A DNA stretch of 64,000 nt. Origin: an uncultured Candidatus Entotheonella sp. Its GTDB lineage: Bacteria > Tectomicrobia > Entotheonellia > Entotheonellales > Entotheonellaceae. The notes below the pieces were generated by a model. That model saw only the letters and a program-made list of their open reading frames with translations, did no database searches and was not told where the DNA came from. Below are positions 24,661 to 36,653 of this stretch, piece after piece. The DNA lies in contig OX639990.1 of NCBI GenBank assembly GCA_951828535.1, positions 979,300-1,043,299 on the forward strand, given 5' to 3'. Positions within the stretch are counted from its first letter, which is position 1. Every line of letters begins with the position of its first letter. The translations under genes were made by a program, and so were the position numbers.

Positions 24661-25509
24661 TTAAGCAGCTTGTTGATGGCTCCTCTCGAAGTTTAGTGGC
24701 GACAGGTAGCCGAGGCCAGAGTGACGACGGTGTGGGTTGTACCAGCCTTCTATGTATTCGAAGATCGCCATGCGGGCCTCAGCTTGGGTACGGAATACGC
24801 GCCGGTCAATGAATTCGCATTCAAGGGTGGCGAAGAAACTTTCCGCCATAGCGTTGTCAAAACAGTCACCTACCGAACCCATGGACGGCGCGACGCCCAT
24901 CTCTCGGCAGCGTTTCCCGAACGCGTAGGACGTATATTGGCTACCTTGATCGCTGTGATGAACGACGCTGCCTGGACGGCGTTGCCACAGCGCCATGTTC
25001 AGCGCCTCGAGCACCAGCTCGGTGCGCAGGTGATTGGCCATCGACCAGCCCACAACCCGCCGGCTGAAGGCGTCGACGACGACCGCCAGAAACAGGAATC
25101 CGGCCCAGGTCGGCACGTAGGTGATATCGGCCACCCACAGAAGGTCAGGTGCATCGGCTTCGAACCTGCGCTCAACGAGGTCTGGAGCTGGACGAAGCCT
25201 GTGGTCGCGGCGCGTGGTGCGTGTTCCCTTGCGTCTGGATACCCCGACCAGGCTCATCTCTCGCATCAACCTGGCCACGCGCTTGCGACCGATATGGATA
25301 CCGTCGGCGGCAAGCTCGGCGTGAATTCGAGGTGCTCCGTAAGTGCCGCGGCTGCGATGATGGATGTTGCTGATGCAAGCCTTGAGGACAGCATCGTATT
25401 GCTGGCGAGGCGACAACTCACGGTCTCGCCAGGCGTAGTACCCGCTCGGGGAGACGCCGAGCAAACGGGCCACCTTGGCGATGGGGTAACGGGCCTGATT
25501 CGCTCTCAT
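24661..25509 (-). CDS. IS3-family transposase OrfB
   Basis: The 282-residue DDE integrase-core transposase contains an HTH_21 region (RYPIAKVARLLGVSPSGYYA, GTYGAPRIHAELAADGIHIG). The catalytic domain has DLLWVADITYVPTWAGFLFL (first Asp), HHSDQGSQYTS (second Asp) and DNAMAESFFATLECEFI (Glu). It ends in the usual YNPHRRHSGLGYLSP. The start overlaps the orfA stop (ATGA). A fused OrfAB could form by minus-one slippage near GCAAAG upstream of the overlap. Confidence 0.95.
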   Translation of the reverse strand: MRANQARYPIAKVARLLGVSPSGYYAWRDRELSPRQQYDAVLKACISNIHHRSRGTYGAPRIHAELAADGIHIGRKRVARLMREMSLVGVSRRKGTRTTRRDHRLRPAPDLVERRFEADAPDLLWVADITYVPTWAGFLFLAVVVDAFSRRVVGWSMANHLRTELVLEALNMALWQRRPGSVVHHSDQGSQYTSYAFGKRCREMGVAPSMGSVGDCFDNAMAESFFATLECEFIDRRVFRTQAEARMAIFEYIEGWYNPHRRHSGLGYLSPLNFERSHQQAA

Positions 25510-25820
25510 GAACTCGAAGGCTTTGCGGGTACCGAGCCGGTCTCCCGAGCAAACCAGGCCGTGGCTTTTGCCAGTATCTCGCGCTCAAGACGCAACTGAC
25601 GGTTTTCACGGCGTAGGCGGCGAAGCTCATCGCGATCGTCGCTCATCAGGCCGTCGTCACGGCGGCCTTCGTCGAGGTCGGCCTGGCGGACCCACTTGCG
25701 GATGGTCTCCGCACAGCATTCGAAGTCGCGGGCCAGTTCCGTAGCAGATCTACCTGAGCGAACCAGCTCCACCATCTGGTGGCGAAACTCAGGCGGGTAT
25801 GCGGGACGTGTTCGTGGCAT
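25506..25820 (-). CDS. IS3-family transposase OrfA
   Basis: The 104-residue protein carries the helix-turn-helix of IS3 OrfA (PPEFRHQMVELVRSGRSATE, LARDFECCAETIRKWVRQAD). A Leu-zipper-like helix, ELRRLRRENRQLRLEREILA, ends in KATAWFA. It binds the element ends and regulates OrfB. The stop overlaps the OrfB start by 4 bases. Confidence 0.93.
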   Translation of the reverse strand: MPRTRPAYPPEFRHQMVELVRSGRSATELARDFECCAETIRKWVRQADLDEGRRDDGLMSDDRDELRRLRRENRQLRLEREILAKATAWFARETGSVPAKPSSS

Positions 25821-28120: not shown

Positions 28121-28420
28121 ATGGATCTTGACCAATTGCGCTTGCGTCTCGATGCCATCGACGCTCAGGTTCTCGCGTTGCTTTCGGAGCGCGCTGGAGC
28201 GGTTCTGGACATCGGCGATTACAAGCGTAAGCAGGGTCTCCCCATCCACGTGCCGGAGCGTGAGAACAATGTTGTCAAACGCCTGCAGACGGATAATCCC
28301 GGGCCACTTCCCGGAGGAGCCATTGAACGCATTTTCCGCGCGATTATCGAGGAAATGCGCAAGCTTGAAGAAGAGCATGTAGGGCGTGTAGACGAATCCG
28401 GCAAGATCAAGACAACCTAG
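28121..28420 (+). CDS. Chorismate mutase (AroQ class), stand-alone
   Basis: The 99-residue all-alpha protein begins MDLDQLRLRLDAIDAQVLAL and continues LSERAGAVLDIGDYKRKQGL and PIHVPERENNVVKRL. It carries the Arg, Lys and Glu residues typical of AroQ. It converts chorismate to prephenate for Phe and Tyr synthesis. In many relatives this domain is fused to prephenate dehydratase; here it ends after the mutase. ccmE follows in 23 bases, so it may lead the ccm operon, although the functions are unrelated. Confidence 0.85.
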   Translation: MDLDQLRLRLDAIDAQVLALLSERAGAVLDIGDYKRKQGLPIHVPERENNVVKRLQTDNPGPLPGGAIERIFRAIIEEMRKLEEEHVGRVDESGKIKTT

Positions 28421-28443: not shown

Positions 28444-28845
28444 ATGTCGAAACAACACGTCAAACTGTCAATCGGGGCCGCCATTGTCGTGGCGTCGATG
28501 GTCTATCTGATGTTTTCCGGCGCGACGGGAAGCACCATGTATTACATGACGGTTCCCGAACTGCACCAACAGGTCGCCGCCATGCAGGGTGAAGCCATCA
28601 GGGTGTCTGGAAAGGTAACAGCGGATCCGATTCACTGGGACGTGCGCAATTTGCAGCTCACCTTCACGATGGGAGAAGGGGAGGCAAGCGTGCCCGTGTC
28701 GTACAAGGGCGTCAAGCCGGACATGTTTCAGATAGGCGCGGACGTTATTGTGGAAGGGCAGATCGGTCAGGACGGCACCCTGATTGCTTCCCACCTAATG
28801 ACCAGTTGCCCGTCAAAGTACGAAGAAGAAAAACCCACGTCATAA
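28444..28845 (+). CDS. ccmE: Cytochrome c maturation heme chaperone CcmE, Cys variant
   Basis: The 133-residue protein has one N-terminal membrane anchor (IGAAIVVASMVYLMFSG) and an OB-fold domain (GEAIRVSGKVTADPIHWDVR, LTFTMGEGEASVPVSYKGVK, PDMFQIGADVIVEGQIGQDG). Near the end lies TSCPSKYEE, with Cys122 and Tyr126 as a CxxxY motif. Most CcmE proteins have HxxxY, where His binds heme covalently. The Cys form is known from System I* in archaea and sulfate reducers. The ATG at 28444 has AGGGAAGG 8 bases upstream. Confidence 0.92.
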   Translation: MSKQHVKLSIGAAIVVASMVYLMFSGATGSTMYYMTVPELHQQVAAMQGEAIRVSGKVTADPIHWDVRNLQLTFTMGEGEASVPVSYKGVKPDMFQIGADVIVEGQIGQDGTLIASHLMTSCPSKYEEEKPTS

Positions 28846-28883: not shown

Positions 28884-30878
28884 ATGAACGATGTCGGCGG
28901 CGCGGCCTTGCAATTTGCTTTTGTCGCGGCCCTCTATGCGATCGCCACGGCTTTAATTGGGGTTCGAACCGGCCGGCAGGAGTTGATTCGCAGCGCTGAA
29001 CGGGCAACGTTCGGTGTTTTTGCTCTGGTTTCCGTCGCGATGATCGCGCTGCTTTTTGCCATACTGACCCACGACTTCCGCGTCCAGTACGTCACCAGTG
29101 TTTCAAACCTTTCCATGCCCATCTTTTACCTCATTGCCTCCCTGTGGGGCGGGCAAGAGGGTTCCATGCTGTTGTGGCTGTGGGTTCTGACCCTGTACGG
29201 CGCCATCGCCGTGGCGCAGAACCTGCACCGCAATCGGGAACTGATGCCTTACGTCGTTCCCACCCTCATGGCCACGTCGATCCTATTTCTGGCCATTCTC
29301 ATCTTCGCAGAAAATCCCTTCCACGAATTGGCCCAAGCACCCCTCGACGGCCAAGGGCTGAACCCGCTGTTGCAAAATCCCCTGATGGTGATCCATCCGC
29401 CCAACCTCTATTTGGGCTTTGTCGGGTTTGCCGTGCCGTTCAGTTTTGCCATCGGCGCTTTGGCGAGCGGGCGTCTGGACAGCCAGTGGATACGCAGCAT
29501 CCGGCGCTGGACGCTCATCCCTTGGCTCTTTCTGACCGTCGGCATTTTGCTGGGTGGGCAGTGGGCCTACGTGGAATTAGGGTGGGGCGGCTATTGGGCC
29601 TGGGACCCGGTCGAAAATGCCTCGCTGCTGCCGTGGCTCACCGCAACCGCGTTCCTTCATTCGGTGATGATCCAGGAAAAAAAGGGCATGCTGAAAGTAT
29701 GGAACATGTCCCTTGTGATTCTGACGTACGGGCTGTCGATTTTTGGCACGTTTCTGACACGTAGCGGTGTCATCTCCTCCGTCCATGCGTTTGCCGAATC
29801 GTCCCTGGGCGTGTATTTCCTGATCTATCTGGCGATCGCGCTGACGATTGCCGTGGCCCTGCTGGTGTGGCGTCTTCCTGAGTTGCGCAGCGACCATCGT
29901 CTGGAGTCTGTCCTGTCGCGTGAAAGCAGCTTCTTATTCAACAACCTGTTCTTCGTCGGCATCATGTTCTCGGTACTTTGGGGCACCATGTTCCCAATCA
30001 TTTCCGAGGCGGTTCGAGGTGTCAAGATCAGCGTTGCAGCGCCGTTCTTCAATCAGGTCAACGTGCCTTTGGGCCTCGCCCTGCTTCTGCTTTCGGGCGT
30101 GTGCCCGCTGATTGCGTGGCGCAGGGGCAGCGTCCGCAACTTCCAGCGCAATTTTCTCAATCCGCTTGTCGTGTCCCTCCTGGGCGTGGCCGTCCTCTAC
30201 GGCAGCGGCATCCGACACGTGGTCGCCTTGATTTCCCTGTCCATCTGTCTGTTCACCTTCTCAACGATCGTGCTGGAATTTTATCGCGGCACGCGGGCTC
30301 GGCGCGCGTCGACGGGGGGAACCGCCTGGCAGGCATTCTTCTCCCTGATGACCCGGAATCGGCGCCGTTACGGGGGCTACACCATTCACTTTGGGGTGGT
30401 TCTGATCTTCGTGGGGATCACCGGCTCCTCAGCCTACAAGATCGAACGCGACATTGTTCTGGACCCCATGGAGCAGACGACGGTAGGGGACTTTGCGCTG
30501 CGGTACGAAACGCTCGAGAGCGACCTGCAGCCGACCCATGAATCGATACGGGCCAGGGTGGAGGTGAGCCGGAACGGGCGGTATGTGACGACGTTGTTCC
30601 CGGAAAGGCGTTTCTATTTCGCGCAGAATCAACCGACAACGGAAGTCGCCCTGCGGACGTCGCTGCTCGAAGATCTCTACATCATCCTGGCGGGTTTTGA
30701 ACCCTCGGGCACCGCCACCTTCAAGGTATTTGTCAACCCATTAATGGTGTGGCTGTGGCTCGGCGGCCTCGTGATGATCATTGGCACGCTCATTGCGATC
30801 TGGCCCGAGCGCGGGCAGTCCGCACGGATTGGCGCGCCTGGAACACCAACGACCGAGACAGCCGCGGAACAGGGGTGA
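28884..30878 (+). CDS. ccmF: Heme lyase CcmF/NrfE family
   Basis: The 664-residue polytopic protein carries the WWD-type heme-handling domain (GWGGYWAWDPVENASLLPWL) and the His-bearing MVIHPPNLYLGFVGF. Further helices include FFVGIMFSVLWGTMFPIISE. A large periplasmic loop near the C-terminus is followed by a last helix, MVWLWLGGLVMIIGTLIAIW. CcmF takes heme from CcmE and attaches it to apocytochrome c. It follows ccmE after 38 bases. Confidence 0.95.
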   Translation: MNDVGGAALQFAFVAALYAIATALIGVRTGRQELIRSAERATFGVFALVSVAMIALLFAILTHDFRVQYVTSVSNLSMPIFYLIASLWGGQEGSMLLWLWVLTLYGAIAVAQNLHRNRELMPYVVPTLMATSILFLAILIFAENPFHELAQAPLDGQGLNPLLQNPLMVIHPPNLYLGFVGFAVPFSFAIGALASGRLDSQWIRSIRRWTLIPWLFLTVGILLGGQWAYVELGWGGYWAWDPVENASLLPWLTATAFLHSVMIQEKKGMLKVWNMSLVILTYGLSIFGTFLTRSGVISSVHAFAESSLGVYFLIYLAIALTIAVALLVWRLPELRSDHRLESVLSRESSFLFNNLFFVGIMFSVLWGTMFPIISEAVRGVKISVAAPFFNQVNVPLGLALLLLSGVCPLIAWRRGSVRNFQRNFLNPLVVSLLGVAVLYGSGIRHVVALISLSICLFTFSTIVLEFYRGTRARRASTGGTAWQAFFSLMTRNRRRYGGYTIHFGVVLIFVGITGSSAYKIERDIVLDPMEQTTVGDFALRYETLESDLQPTHESIRARVEVSRNGRYVTTLFPERRFYFAQNQPTTEVALRTSLLEDLYIILAGFEPSGTATFKVFVNPLMVWLWLGGLVMIIGTLIAIWPERGQSARIGAPGTPTTETAAEQG

Positions 30879-30884
30879 GGCGTT

Positions 30885-31331
30885 GTGAACACGGCCGACA
30901 TCGTCGTCATCGTCGTCATGGCTATTGGGCTTGTCGCCTGGATCGGAGAGCCTGTTGTCCGCCGAGGTCGCATGCAGGAAGCTGCGGCGGATGCACACGA
31001 CGATGCCATTGAGCGCCTGATCCTGCAAAAGGAAACGCTGTACACAGCCATTCGAGATCTGGATTTTGATCATCAGACCGGCAAGGTGGATGCCGAGGAC
31101 CATGTCGCGCTACGCCGCCAGATGGAGGCAGAGGCCGCAGACATCCTGCGGCAATTGGACCTGGCTGATCCGCTGGCTGACCTGGATCTCGTCGCGGAGC
31201 GAGAAATTCTGGCCTATCGCCGAAAGGAAGACGCCGCTTCCGAGGACACGTGCCCGACTTGCGGAACCGACTTGGCGGCCGACGCAACCTATTGTCCCAT
31301 CTGCGGTCAGCTACTCAAGCCAGCCGTGTAA
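30885..31331 (+). CDS. Membrane-anchored zinc-ribbon protein in the ccm operon
   Basis: The 148-residue protein has an N-terminal helix (IVVIVVMAIGLVAWIGEPVV). A helical segment, AIERLILQKETLYTAIRDLD FDHQTGKVDAEDHVALRRQM, follows, and it ends in a zinc ribbon with two CxxC (DTCPTCGTDL, TYCPICGQLL). The helical segment follows the pattern seen at the N-terminus of CcmI (helix, G-x-(I/V)D, acidic, R). It lies between ccmF and the next accessory gene and starts with GTG after GAGG. It may substitute for a CcmI/CcmH part, which is an inference. Confidence 0.72.
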   Translation: MNTADIVVIVVMAIGLVAWIGEPVVRRGRMQEAAADAHDDAIERLILQKETLYTAIRDLDFDHQTGKVDAEDHVALRRQMEAEAADILRQLDLADPLADLDLVAEREILAYRRKEDAASEDTCPTCGTDLAADATYCPICGQLLKPAV

Positions 31332-31394
31332 GACGTGACGGCGCGCTTCTGCTTCTGCTGCTCGACCCCGCCTACACTTTCCCGGTGCCTTCCA

Positions 31395-32624
31395 ATGCCG
31401 CACAACAACATCTCACAATTTATGAGCTGCGCCGCTCTCGTGTGCGGCCTGCTCCTGCTCAGCGCCTTGTCAACCTCGGTCAGGGCGGAGGACGGCAGTA
31501 TTGGCGGTGTCATTCGATCCGGCGGGGAAGTGGTGGGTGCGCACCGCATCATGCTCATCCGGTTTGGACCCGACAACGACGTACAGCGCACGCCAGGCGA
31601 GACCAACGCTGAGGGGGAGTTTCTGTTCGAGAATCTGTCAACCGGCGGGAGCTTCACGTACTTCGTCGGTATTCGCTACCAGGACCAATTGCACCGAAGC
31701 GAGCCAATTTCCCTCCAAGATTCGCCACACCGGGCGGATCTTGTCCTGAACCTGGACGACCCGTCCGCGCAAGCCTTGCCGGCGCAGCCCGTTGCGCCAA
31801 CGTTGCAGGTCATGAGTCACCTGATGGTGATCGTCAAGCGCAATGAACAGCTGGAAGTACGCGAGATCGTGAAAATCGTTAACCGCGGCACGACAGCGTT
31901 CGCCGGTTCTGGAGACGCCGACTCGGGCAGTCCCCACGGTTCCTTCCATCTTTCCCTGCCTAAAGGCTACGACGAACTGCAAGGGATTGAGGGGCTGGAC
32001 CCGTCCCTGATCCGGCAACACGCTACCGGCCTGATTTACACGGCCCCATTGGAACCTGGCGAACACAACTTGATGTTTACCTATGCGCTTCCTTTGCAGG
32101 GCAAGGTGATGGTGATCCTGCCCCGGCGCACCCTGCCAACGGACGTGCTCGACGTTCTTGTCGAGGAAGAGTCCCTCGCGGCAACCAGTGATTTATCGTT
32201 CGCCGGCCGCGTGTCCGTTGAGCCCCATGTATTCACTCATTTCCGCGGCATTGATTTGCCGGATCGCTCGCGCTCCTGGTTGCAACTGGCGCAACGAACA
32301 ACAGCGTTGCCAGCCCTGCGCGTGGGGGTTTACGGTCTGGTCGTGGTTCTTTCATTGACAGGCATGGCGGCGCCCTACGCACGGGGGCGGCGTGCCAAGC
32401 CAATTGCCGCGCCGCAGTTGCAGGCGACACCGCAACAGATACACGACTTGCGCGCGGCCGAGCAATTGTTGCTGCAACGCATCTCGCAGATTGACAGGCG
32501 ATGGGAAGCCGGCGCGATTGACGACATGGATTATCATCCCCGCCGCCGCGATTACAAGACCCAGCTCTGCAGTCTCTTGCGGCAACTCCAGCAAATTGGG
32601 GAGCATCAGAACCAACGTGTCTAG
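31395..32624 (+). CDS. Exported carboxypeptidase-regulatory-like domain protein in the ccm operon
   Basis: This 409-residue protein has a signal peptide (MSCAALVCGLLLLSALSTSV RA). A beta-sandwich follows (IGGVIRSGGEVVGAHRIMLI, TNAEGEFLFENLSTGGSFTY), then a middle periplasmic part. A membrane helix near 335 (VGVYGLVVVLSLTGMAAP) leads to a cytoplasmic tail. That tail (RAAEQLLLQRISQIDRRWEA GAIDDMDYHPRR) repeats the CcmI-like pattern of the preceding protein. The start is uncertain (31335 GTG, 31395 ATG or 31422 ATG). Its role in cytochrome c assembly is inferred from position only. Confidence 0.65.
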   Translation: MPHNNISQFMSCAALVCGLLLLSALSTSVRAEDGSIGGVIRSGGEVVGAHRIMLIRFGPDNDVQRTPGETNAEGEFLFENLSTGGSFTYFVGIRYQDQLHRSEPISLQDSPHRADLVLNLDDPSAQALPAQPVAPTLQVMSHLMVIVKRNEQLEVREIVKIVNRGTTAFAGSGDADSGSPHGSFHLSLPKGYDELQGIEGLDPSLIRQHATGLIYTAPLEPGEHNLMFTYALPLQGKVMVILPRRTLPTDVLDVLVEEESLAATSDLSFAGRVSVEPHVFTHFRGIDLPDRSRSWLQLAQRTTALPALRVGVYGLVVVLSLTGMAAPYARGRRAKPIAAPQLQATPQQIHDLRAAEQLLLQRISQIDRRWEAGAIDDMDYHPRRRDYKTQLCSLLRQLQQIGEHQNQRV

Positions 32625-32658
32625 CCGCGTCCAAGACCCGCCGGAAGGTCAGCCATTG

Positions 32659-33354
32659 ATGGTCCATCTGGACCGCGTCACCAAACACTTCGGCGCCTCT
32701 CTCGCTCTGCAGGGCGTCGATTTGCAACTCCAGTCCGGCAAGTGCCTGGGCCTTGTCGGTCCGAATGGGGCCGGTAAGACCACCTTGCTGAAAATCCTTT
32801 CCACCCTGACGCTGCCCTCCAGCGGCGCGGTGACCATTGCCGGCCACGATGCGTCACGCGCTGCGGAACGCATCCGCCCGCTCTTGGGCGTCTTGAGTCA
32901 CCGCACCTTTCTTTATGGCCACCTCACGGCATTTGAGAATCTTCATTTTTACGGACGTATGTTGGGGGTCCCCCACCTCGGCGAGCGCATCCGCGAAGTG
33001 CTGGAGACCGTCGGGCTGGAGTCGCTTACACGCCAATTCGTTCGCACCTATTCGCGCGGCATGCAGCAGCGTTTGGCCATTGCGCGAGCCATTTTGCACC
33101 ACCCCAGGCTGCTCCTTCTCGATGAACCGTACAACGCCCTCGATCAACAAGCCGCAGCGCGGTTGCAGAACCTCCTGCGGCAACTGTGCTCAGAAGGCCG
33201 CACCATCATTATCAGCACACACGATTTGCCCCGCGGGTTTGAATTGTGCGACGAAATTGCCATCCAACGCCGCGGCAAAATCGTGCACCACGTTTCGACG
33301 TCACAGGACACCCTGCACTCCTTTTCGCAACTGTACAGTCATCATGTCGGTTAA
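32659..33354 (+). CDS. ccmA: Heme exporter ATP-binding protein CcmA
   Basis: The 231-residue ABC ATPase powers release of holo-CcmE together with CcmB and CcmC. It has Walker [18 protein letters not shown], signature YSRGMQQRLAIARAIL, Walker B LLLLDEPYNALD and the switch His in IIISTHDLPRG. The ATG at 32659 matches the usual N-terminus. A GTG at 32617 overlapping the previous stop is possible and would add 14 residues. The end overlaps ccmB by 11 bases. Confidence 0.93.
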   Translation: MVHLDRVTKHFGASLALQGVDLQLQSGKCLGLVGPNGAGKTTLLKILSTLTLPSSGAVTIAGHDASRAAERIRPLLGVLSHRTFLYGHLTAFENLHFYGRMLGVPHLGERIREVLETVGLESLTRQFVRTYSRGMQQRLAIARAILHHPRLLLLDEPYNALDQQAAARLQNLLRQLCSEGRTIIISTHDLPRGFELCDEIAIQRRGKIVHHVSTSQDTLHSFSQLYSHHVG

Positions 33355-34033
33355 CGGTGCCTTCGTGCGGCAAGCGGGCGCTATTCTGGCCAAGGACCTG
33401 AAGACCGAATGGCGGGCGCGCGAAATCTTTACGTCCATGTTCGTGTTCACGGTGTTGGTCGTGGTGGTATTCCAGTTCACCATCGGCTCCAATCCGGCTC
33501 TGATCCGCGAGGTGGCCGCCGGCGTGCTGTGGGTCGCGCTCCTGTTCGCCACCGTGATAGGGCTGCAACGAGCCGTACAAATGGAAGGCGAGGAGGACTG
33601 CCTGCAGGGCGTGTTGTTAGCCGTGCAGGACCGCTCGGCACTGTTCCTGGCGAAGGCACTGGCCAACATGATCTATCTGCTCGTCGTATCCGGTTGCATC
33701 TTGCCCCTCTTCGCGCTCTGGTTCCGCGTCGACCTGACGGCCAGCCTGCCCGCACTCGGTGTCATCCTGGCGTTGGGAATCGTGGGACTGAGCGTTCTGG
33801 GGACATTGTTTTCCCTCATTGTATTGAACATCCGAATGCGGGAGGTCATGCTGCCGCTGCTGTTTCTTCCGGTGTCGGTGCCGTTGCTGATCGCCTCCGT
33901 GTATGCCACCGGAGACCTCATTGACGGCAAGACATTGGCGGACCTCCGGGACTACGTTATCCTGATAACCGTCTTTGACGTTGTTTTCCTGGTGCTGGCG
34001 GTGCTGATTTTTGATTACGTCGTGGAGGAGTAA
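33344..34033 (+). CDS. ccmB: Heme exporter membrane protein CcmB
   Basis: The 229-residue six-helix membrane protein starts MSVNGAFVRQAGAILAKDLK and has TEWRAREIFTSMFVFTVLVV, LALGIVGLSVLGTLFSLIVL and MREVMLPLLFLPVSVPLLIA. This is the standard CcmB pattern. It pairs with CcmA. The ATG lies inside the end of ccmA, so translation is coupled. The upstream continuation of the frame to 32915 is spurious. Confidence 0.93.
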   Translation: MSVNGAFVRQAGAILAKDLKTEWRAREIFTSMFVFTVLVVVVFQFTIGSNPALIREVAAGVLWVALLFATVIGLQRAVQMEGEEDCLQGVLLAVQDRSALFLAKALANMIYLLVVSGCILPLFALWFRVDLTASLPALGVILALGIVGLSVLGTLFSLIVLNIRMREVMLPLLFLPVSVPLLIASVYATGDLIDGKTLADLRDYVILITVFDVVFLVLAVLIFDYVVEE

Positions 34034-34037
34034 CACG

Positions 34038-34757
34038 GTGGCCGGTGGAGAAAAGAAGAGACACCCACTCAGCCTGTGGCCGGGCTGGTACGCAACGCTG
34101 ACGTACGTGGCAATGGTGGCCGCGCTCTGGTGCATCTTTGTCTATGCTCCTACGGAAAAGGCGCAGGGTATTGTGCAGCGCATCTTCTATTTTCACGTGT
34201 CTTCGGCGATGACCATGTTTGTAGCCTTCTTCGTGGTATTTGTCGCCAGTATCATTTACTTGTGGAAACACGCCGACTGGTGGGATCAGACAGCCATGAG
34301 TGCCGCCGAGCTCGGCGTGCTTTTCTGCACCCTTGTGCTCATAACGGGCCCGATTTGGGGACGTCCGATTTGGGGCGTCTGGTGGACCTGGGATCCGACC
34401 CTCACACTGACCCTGGTGCTGTGGCTGATTTACGTGGCTTATCTCATGCTGCGGGCGGATGCGACGGATCCGAGGCGAGCCCGGTTTGCGGCAGTCCTGG
34501 GCATTGTCGGCTTCATCGACGTGCCGCTGATTCGCTGGAGCATCGAAAAGTGGCGCAATCTCCACCCCGAGCCGGTGGTTGTTCAATCGGGGGGAACAAC
34601 CGGGCTACCACCTGCCATGATGTTGACCTTTTTGGTATCCTTGGCGGCCTTTCTGCTCCTGTTTGTCTTTCTCCTGCGCCAACGTATGGCGGTCGCGCGC
34701 AGACGACACGAACTTGAAGTCCTGCGGCACAAGGTCGACGAGGCATTGTTTGGATAG
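34038..34757 (+). CDS. ccmC: Heme exporter protein CcmC
   Basis: The 239-residue polytopic protein contains the tryptophan-rich heme-presentation segment WGRPIWGVWWTWDPTLT and flanking helices with FYFHVSSAMTMFVA (His ligand). CcmC delivers heme to CcmE. The GTG at 34038 has GGAGGAG 7 bases upstream and is preferred to the longer start at 34011. A Gly/Pro loop with HPEPVV near residue 180 carries the second His region. Confidence 0.94.
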   Translation: MAGGEKKRHPLSLWPGWYATLTYVAMVAALWCIFVYAPTEKAQGIVQRIFYFHVSSAMTMFVAFFVVFVASIIYLWKHADWWDQTAMSAAELGVLFCTLVLITGPIWGRPIWGVWWTWDPTLTLTLVLWLIYVAYLMLRADATDPRRARFAAVLGIVGFIDVPLIRWSIEKWRNLHPEPVVVQSGGTTGLPPAMMLTFLVSLAAFLLLFVFLLRQRMAVARRRHELEVLRHKVDEALFG

Positions 34758-34949: not shown

Positions 34950-34976
34950 TTGGAGGGCAAGGGAAGGGAATCTACC

Positions 34977-36653
<1,677 letters not shown>

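Follow-up and report, generated by a model that had tools for sequence, protein, structure and literature searches.

A ccm-operon protein pair with CcmI-like cytoplasmic hairpins in an uncultured Candidatus Entotheonella

Two adjoining proteins of the ccm operon of an uncultured Candidatus Entotheonella sp. each carry a short hairpin that is predicted to be cytoplasmic, and profile comparisons show that both hairpins are homologous to the cytoplasmic loop of CcmI. We regard the two proteins, here called ZR (for its zinc ribbon) and BS (for its beta-sandwich domains), as a variant of CcmI that is split in two and has a different periplasmic part. Neither protein has a family name in Pfam or NCBIfam, and no description of the pair was found in the open-access literature searched.

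The window, i.e., the whole stretch of 64,000 nucleotides that was analysed, contains the operon in the order chorismate mutase, ccmE, ccmF, ZR, BS, ccmA, ccmB and ccmC (Table 1), followed at 34950-36653 by a gene that we take to encode methylmalonyl-CoA mutase. In two relatives (loci L016 and L017), chorismate mutase and the presumed methylmalonyl-CoA mutase keep their flanking places. There is also what we take to be an IS3-type transposase in two frames, at 24661-25820 on the minus strand and upstream of genes that are presumably those of ATP synthase. The BS reading frame opens at a GTG at 31335; the start used here is the first ATG ahead of the signal peptide, and the protein is then ~409 residues long. 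In searches of Pfam and NCBIfam, only zinc ribbons (Pfam) scored over their cut-offs for ZR, and nothing matched the window's BS (Pfam down to E <= 10).

Table 1. The ccm operon of the window and the domains of ZR and BS
Feature	Position	Strand	Basis
Chorismate mutase, upstream flank of the ccm operon	28121-28420
ccmE, Cys type (CPSKY in place of HxxxY)	28444-28845	+	PF03100, E 1e-25; motif from translation
ccmF (heme lyase subunit)	28884-30878	+	PF16327, E 4e-68; PF01578, E 6e-39
ZR: membrane helix, predicted cytoplasmic hairpin, zinc ribbon; putative CcmI N-domain homologue (148 aa, GTG start to stop)	30885-31331	+
ZR hairpin (residues 36-94), with GKVDAEDHVALRRQ	30990-31166	+
ZR zinc ribbon CxxC...CxxC (residues 122-141)	31248-31307	+	PF13240, E 3.7e-6, over its cut-off
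BS: predicted exported type I membrane protein	31395-32624	+	ORF; AlphaFold model; family alignment A3 (30 members)
BS outer domain, carboxypeptidase-regulatory-like beta-sandwich (residues 34-119)	31494-31751	+	family PF13620; NOMO2 profile; model
BS inner domain, ribophorin I / M1-aminopeptidase N-domain-like beta-sandwich (residues 137-301)	31803-32297	+	Foldseek; VIA-align
BS membrane helix (residues 306-333)	32310-32393	+	model; hydropathy
BS predicted cytoplasmic hairpin (residues 346-408), with GAIDDMDYHPRRRD	32430-32618	+	alignment; profiles; model
ccmA	32656-33354	+	TIGR01189, 140 bits, over its cut-off
ccmB	33344-34033	+	PF03379, E 7.5e-35
ccmC	34011-34757	+	TIGR01191, E 6e-39; PF01578, E 3.5e-27

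The shared hairpin

The initial annotation had pointed to a common pattern of helix, G-x-(I/V)D and LRQL in ZR and BS, and it is confirmed that each protein carries a helix-G-x-(I/V)-D-helix hairpin where that pattern had been placed: ZR contains TGKVDAEDHVALRRQ...ILRQLD and BS contains AGAIDDMDYHPRRRD...LLRQLQ. Because arginine-rich residues directly follow the membrane helix in both proteins, the hairpins are predicted to lie on the cytoplasmic side, a topology that is read from the sequence. AlphaFold models give a helix-turn-helix in each case, formed in ZR by residues 3-64 and 70-94 (pLDDT mostly 95-98 over the hairpin and 90 for the whole model) and in BS by residues 346-371 and 377-408 (pLDDT 94-98 over most of the hairpin).

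The similarity proposed between the two segments is borne out statistically. Aligned locally, the cytoplasmic parts of the two proteins score 64, whereas shuffled BS tails score 27.7 on average and none of 5000 reaches 64; among the window's 256 ORFs that reach 80 aa, BS is the best match to ZR and the runner-up scores 40. Family profiles restricted to the hairpin, from which the membrane helix and the zinc ribbon had been excluded, align over 49 columns in hhalign with E = 2.8e-9, a value reached by 0 of 100 column shuffles (best 0.022). With a model of the ZR hairpin, 20 of 25 BS tails exceed the 99th percentile of shuffled tails, and with a model of the BS tail the same is true of 49 of 53 ZR hairpins relative to their shuffled counterparts; reversed tails score at most 3.1. 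A Foldseek search with the ZR model returned nothing at E <= 0.001. Matches of that model to ESCRT were set aside as short helical hairpins.

Relationship to CcmI and place in the operon

According to PMC3884852, a cytoplasmic region connects the two membrane helices of CcmI, which also has a periplasmic TPR domain and binds both apocytochrome and apoCcmE. The CcmI (CycH; TIGR03142) of System I resembles ZR in having a membrane helix that ends in a conserved Pro, a cytoplasmic helical hairpin with G-x-(I/L/V)-x-x-x-(D/E)-(Y/F), and a place in the operon behind ccmF/ccmH. We compared the hairpins with a profile of 30 CcmI N-domains, collected with the curated model TIGR03142 in one class. The hairpin of the ZR family alone matches the CcmI loop with E = 5.3e-8 (0 of 100 column shuffles reach this; best 0.0073) and that of the BS family with E = 1.9e-7 (again 0 of 100; best 0.003), so that the resemblance of both segments to the N-terminal cytoplasmic loop of CcmI, as originally suggested, is upheld. 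When the membrane helix is included, ZR matches the CcmI N-domain with E = 1.2e-12 over 79 columns.

No other NCBIfam model matches the ZR family as often as TIGR03142, which is found at E <= 1 (best 6.4e-6) in 29 of the 34 members of alignment A4, one of which (L085) bears TPRs; it matches 3 of 30 members of the BS family. In whole-genome scans of 12 genomes with this model, the ZR gene was listed in eight and was the top match in five (G059, G035, G036, G043 and G057), and two more matches fell on BS tails (G001 and G052). Nothing in any of the 12 genomes exceeded the curated cut-off of 29.3 bits, and ZR differs from CcmI in this respect. The window genome gave no TIGR03142 match, its ZR included; because this ZR is itself too diverged for the model, its link to CcmI runs through the ZR family. 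The hairpin model in turn reaches classical CcmI in L166 (E = 6e-6) and L134 (E = 4e-4).

Unlike CcmI, the window's ZR has neither the second membrane helix (its AlphaFold model consists of one membrane helix, the hairpin, a further helix and the ribbon) nor the periplasmic TPR domain (the zinc ribbon is the only Pfam match over its cut-off), and it ends in a zinc ribbon that is predicted to be cytoplasmic. There are, however, homologues with a second membrane helix and a TPR domain in place of the ribbon. For example, L085 and L091, which adjoin ccmF, have the same hairpin with its membrane helix together with a second membrane helix and TPRs recognized by eye. Because homologues of ZR occupy the place of CcmI, some of them with the second helix and TPRs, ZR is best read as a CcmI N-domain that is without the TPR part.

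Homologues of ZR were found in 12 of 60 sampled genomes, mostly in the order E-F-ZR-BS-A-B-C; CcmF was found in 90 and CcmE in 92 of 290 genomes. The zinc-ribbon half of alignment A1 drew many unrelated weak matches, and later searches therefore used a ribbon-free core. With the ribbon-free hairpin model (56 rows), there are 62 hairpin proteins outside BS among the loci fetched. The position of CcmI in the operon, which had been proposed for ZR, is indeed the one it holds: in the window it lies directly behind ccmF, and 51 of the 62 hairpin ORFs are at most 1.5 kb behind ccmF or fused to it. A CcmH match lies no more than 800 bp upstream in 34 cases, both relations hold in 29, and neither holds in 6. 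Loci chosen by CcmF or CcmE supplied 11 of the 62; the other 51 are from loci of the hairpin search, to which the window is counted, and in 45 of these CcmF or CcmH lies just upstream. The exceptions lie on short contigs or close to the edge of one (G004 and G053), have an upstream ORF extension that hides the true start (G102), or have BS adjoining the hairpin protein (G108, G115 and G252).

A simple rule on the second membrane helix and on CxxC pairs divides the hairpin proteins into those with a ribbon (29 genomes), those with a membrane helix and hairpin only (24), those with a second membrane helix (5) and those fused to CcmF (2); the zinc ribbon is thus missing from many ZR homologues. 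An independent motif scan of named genomes gave at least 80 loci. A hairpin protein is present in 42 of the 80 loci listed, 31 of these having CcmF in the same stretch by our own count, and the remaining 38 were dropped because no hairpin protein is there. Among the loci with a hairpin protein are those of Anaerolineae, Caldilineaceae, Acidobacteria, Poribacteria, Nitrospirae, Nitrospinota and Marinimicrobia, and that of the cultured Anaerolinea thermolimosa IMO-1. In the viral contigs scanned, no relative was found.

Gene fusions tie the hairpin, CcmF and BS together. The hairpin with its zinc ribbon is fused to the C-terminal end of CcmF in G182 (L075:7150-9459; E = 2e-14), and a weaker hairpin is found at the same end in G080 (L124:4590-6992; E = 1e-5); in G121, a full membrane helix-hairpin-ribbon unit is located at the end of BS, and in G061 ZR and BS are joined in one frame. 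In a separate observation, the CcmF frames at L079:3436-6399 and L090:7287-9818 (987 and 843 aa) also hold a CcmH match, which suggests that these long frames are CcmF-CcmH fusions.

The exported partner, CcmE type and alternative explanations

The AlphaFold model of BS (pLDDT 86) comprises a signal peptide, an outer and an inner beta-sandwich, a membrane helix and the hairpin, and BS is predicted to be a type I membrane protein. For the outer domain, PF13620 is found in 19 of 30 family members, the window member excepted, and there is a profile match to NOMO2 (E = 1.6e-6). The predicted inner domain matches ribophorin I/Ost1 of the oligosaccharyltransferase in Foldseek (E = 3.6e-10) and in VIA-align (Z 12.3-13.4 over ~160 residues), and the N-domains of M1 aminopeptidases match it with Z ~12, within about 1-1.5 Z of ribophorin I. 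Ribophorin I, which functions in substrate handling, is also like BS in having a membrane helix and cytoplasmic helices after the sandwich; however, sequence similarity is undetectable (a profile search of PDB sequences with BS gave no ribophorin chain at E <= 1), the reaction is a different one, and the fold is common to peptidases. A fold match that is common to ribophorin I and M1 aminopeptidases indicates no function. In 26 of 41 BS-family ORFs the chain continues for 35 residues or more beyond the last membrane helix, and in 3 no such helix was called. The other 12 end 4-17 residues past that helix, without a hairpin, and the hairpin is therefore not essential to the BS family.

One alternative is that the shared hairpin is a common oligomerization unit of the SHOCT kind (PF09851) that was acquired independently, in which case the resemblance to CcmI would be convergence without functional meaning. 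SHOCT is likewise a short helical hairpin, often C-terminal, with a G-x-(I/L)-T/S turn, and SHOCT profiles (10 rows picked by regular expression from 26 loci) align to the ZR, BS and CcmI hairpins with E values of 1e-4, 3.6e-6 and 1.3e-5, respectively; a weak match to PF09851 is also seen at E <= 0.1 in 2 of 30 BS-family members. These alignments are nevertheless weaker than those of the three hairpins with each other, the ZR model outscores that of the 10 SHOCT rows on 23 of 25 BS tails, and the window proteins themselves do not match the family, PF09851 being absent at E <= 10 for BS and from the best 25 Pfam matches of ZR. Independent acquisition is further opposed by the TIGR03142 matches in 29 of 34 ZR-family members and by the restriction of the hairpin to ccm loci, where it stands in place of a true TPR-bearing CcmI. 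We consider it quite unlikely, and because the ZR, BS and CcmI profiles are closer to one another, a plain SHOCT domain was rejected as the main reading; a distant common origin of the ccm hairpins with SHOCT may still exist. Far less credible is a reading that the wording of the initial annotation leaves room for, namely that ZR and BS replace CcmG and CcmH as the thiol-reduction branch. Neither ccmG nor ccmH lies within the window's ccm operon, but the periplasmic part of BS is without Cys, the Cys residues of ZR belong to the predicted cytoplasmic ribbon that many homologues have lost, and ZR-type proteins adjoin CcmH in the 34 of 62 cases mentioned above. Moreover, the genome encodes a CcmH-family protein (PF03918, E = 9.8e-17; G000:C1:1236946-1237266), directly ahead of a DsbD whose C-terminal end is thioredoxin-like, ~220 kb from the ccm operon, and ZR and BS are therefore not needed as CcmH stand-ins. 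The replacement is refuted in the main, and we give it almost no credence.

A search of 290 genomes found CcmH in 71 (E <= 1e-4). The usual CcmH motif is LRCxxC; in the CcmH-family protein of the window genome (L184:7770-8372), whose gene is directly before DsbD, the cysteines are arranged as C-x7-C (CPGRTLLNC).

The CPSKY of the window's CcmE is of the CxxxY form that defines System I*, in which, according to the review PMC3601427, CcmE has a Cys, mostly as CPSKY. The presence of ccmABCEF is a further likeness to this system, which is known from Desulfovibrio, archaea and Chloroflexi. The original description of System I* also includes the absence of CcmH, whereas the window genome has the PF03918 gene; in the same review, this absence is said not to be constant, with about a third of System I* bacteria having CcmH, and Chloroflexi are among these bacteria. 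The review further states that CcmI enhances the Desulfovibrio system, whose expression in an E. coli ccm-deletion strain it reports, and is not required; in the passages considered here, no CcmI with a zinc ribbon and no exported partner with beta-sandwich domains is described (PMC3601427).

Typing of CcmE in the 95 genomes tabulated gave 73 of Cys type, 17 of His type and 5 untyped (3 without CcmE in the loci fetched, and G141 and G278 with CPSKF). In the last two (L088 and L077), Phe replaces the Tyr of the motif. The co-occurrence with Cys-type CcmE that had been anticipated for the pair stands for BS and fails for the hairpin: BS is present in 37 of 73 Cys-type versus 2 of 17 His-type genomes (Fisher p = 0.005, an optimistic value because the genomes, mostly of different families, are nevertheless related); for the hairpin, the corresponding figures are 44 of 73 and 11 of 17 (p = 0.79). 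The two His-type genomes with BS are G004, which is 8% contaminated and has the genes on separate contigs, and G154, in which the BS match is weak. In G002, a genome of the same family as the window, a Cys-type ccmE is directly beside BS and there is no ZR (L179:4388-5584 and 5612); no CcmF was detected in this genome, which is 77% complete.

It is conceivable that the role of BS lies in heme delivery and not in the handling of apocytochrome, with BS acting between CcmABC and CcmF to help Cys-type CcmE take up or release heme, and that only ZR is the equivalent of CcmI. Not only does BS track Cys-type CcmE, which the hairpin does not, but it is usually directly before ccmA, and it stays beside ccmE even in G002, G115 and G252, where ccmF was not detected or lies at a distance; these arrangements fit a link to CcmE as well as one to CcmF. 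On the other hand, 36 of the 73 Cys-type genomes are without BS, so that Cys-type CcmE does not need it, the association is weakened by the relatedness of the genomes, and the BS family alignment has no conserved Cys or His suggestive of heme binding. A role in heme delivery seems to us not very likely.

A possible role at the heme lyase

We lean towards the explanation that the CcmF heme-lyase complex has ZR and BS as accessory subunits, which jointly do the work of CcmI. Docking on CcmF, pairing of ZR with BS, and handling of apocytochrome by BS are what we infer for such a complex. ZR would be the membrane-bound half of CcmI, i.e., the membrane helix and hairpin, and would dock on the cytoplasmic side of CcmF, with the zinc ribbon as an optional cytoplasmic add-on. 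BS would attach by a hairpin of the same kind to either CcmF or ZR and would keep both of its periplasmic beta-sandwich domains above the CcmF/CcmE active site. There it would guide the unfolded apocytochrome, taking the part that the TPR domain plays in classical CcmI. Consistent with a role for the pair at CcmF, there are 19 matches to a cytochrome c family in the window genome, and hence a substrate exists; the ccmE-ZR-BS run of G115 and G252, which is far from ccmF, speaks against it.

According to PMC9084895, it is unclear whether CcmD, CcmH and CcmI were replaced in archaea, and the way in which heme lyase works in organisms that have no classical CcmI or CcmH is an open question, posed there for archaea. 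The present analysis provides named candidates for this question, in the form of a small ccmF-tracking module and of a partner that is enriched with Cys-type CcmE. Because the loop of CcmI occurs by itself, combined with a ribbon or with TPRs, and attached to CcmF or to an exported protein, the findings suggest that this short cytoplasmic loop, rather than the TPR domain, is the conserved and movable part of CcmI. Finally, we raise the tentative possibility that in several bacterial phyla CcmI was split and rebuilt as a hairpin-only membrane subunit and a ribophorin-I-like membrane protein that presents apocytochrome. If this were true, cytochrome c maturation and N-glycosylation would use the same kind of substrate-holding subunit beside a membrane enzyme.
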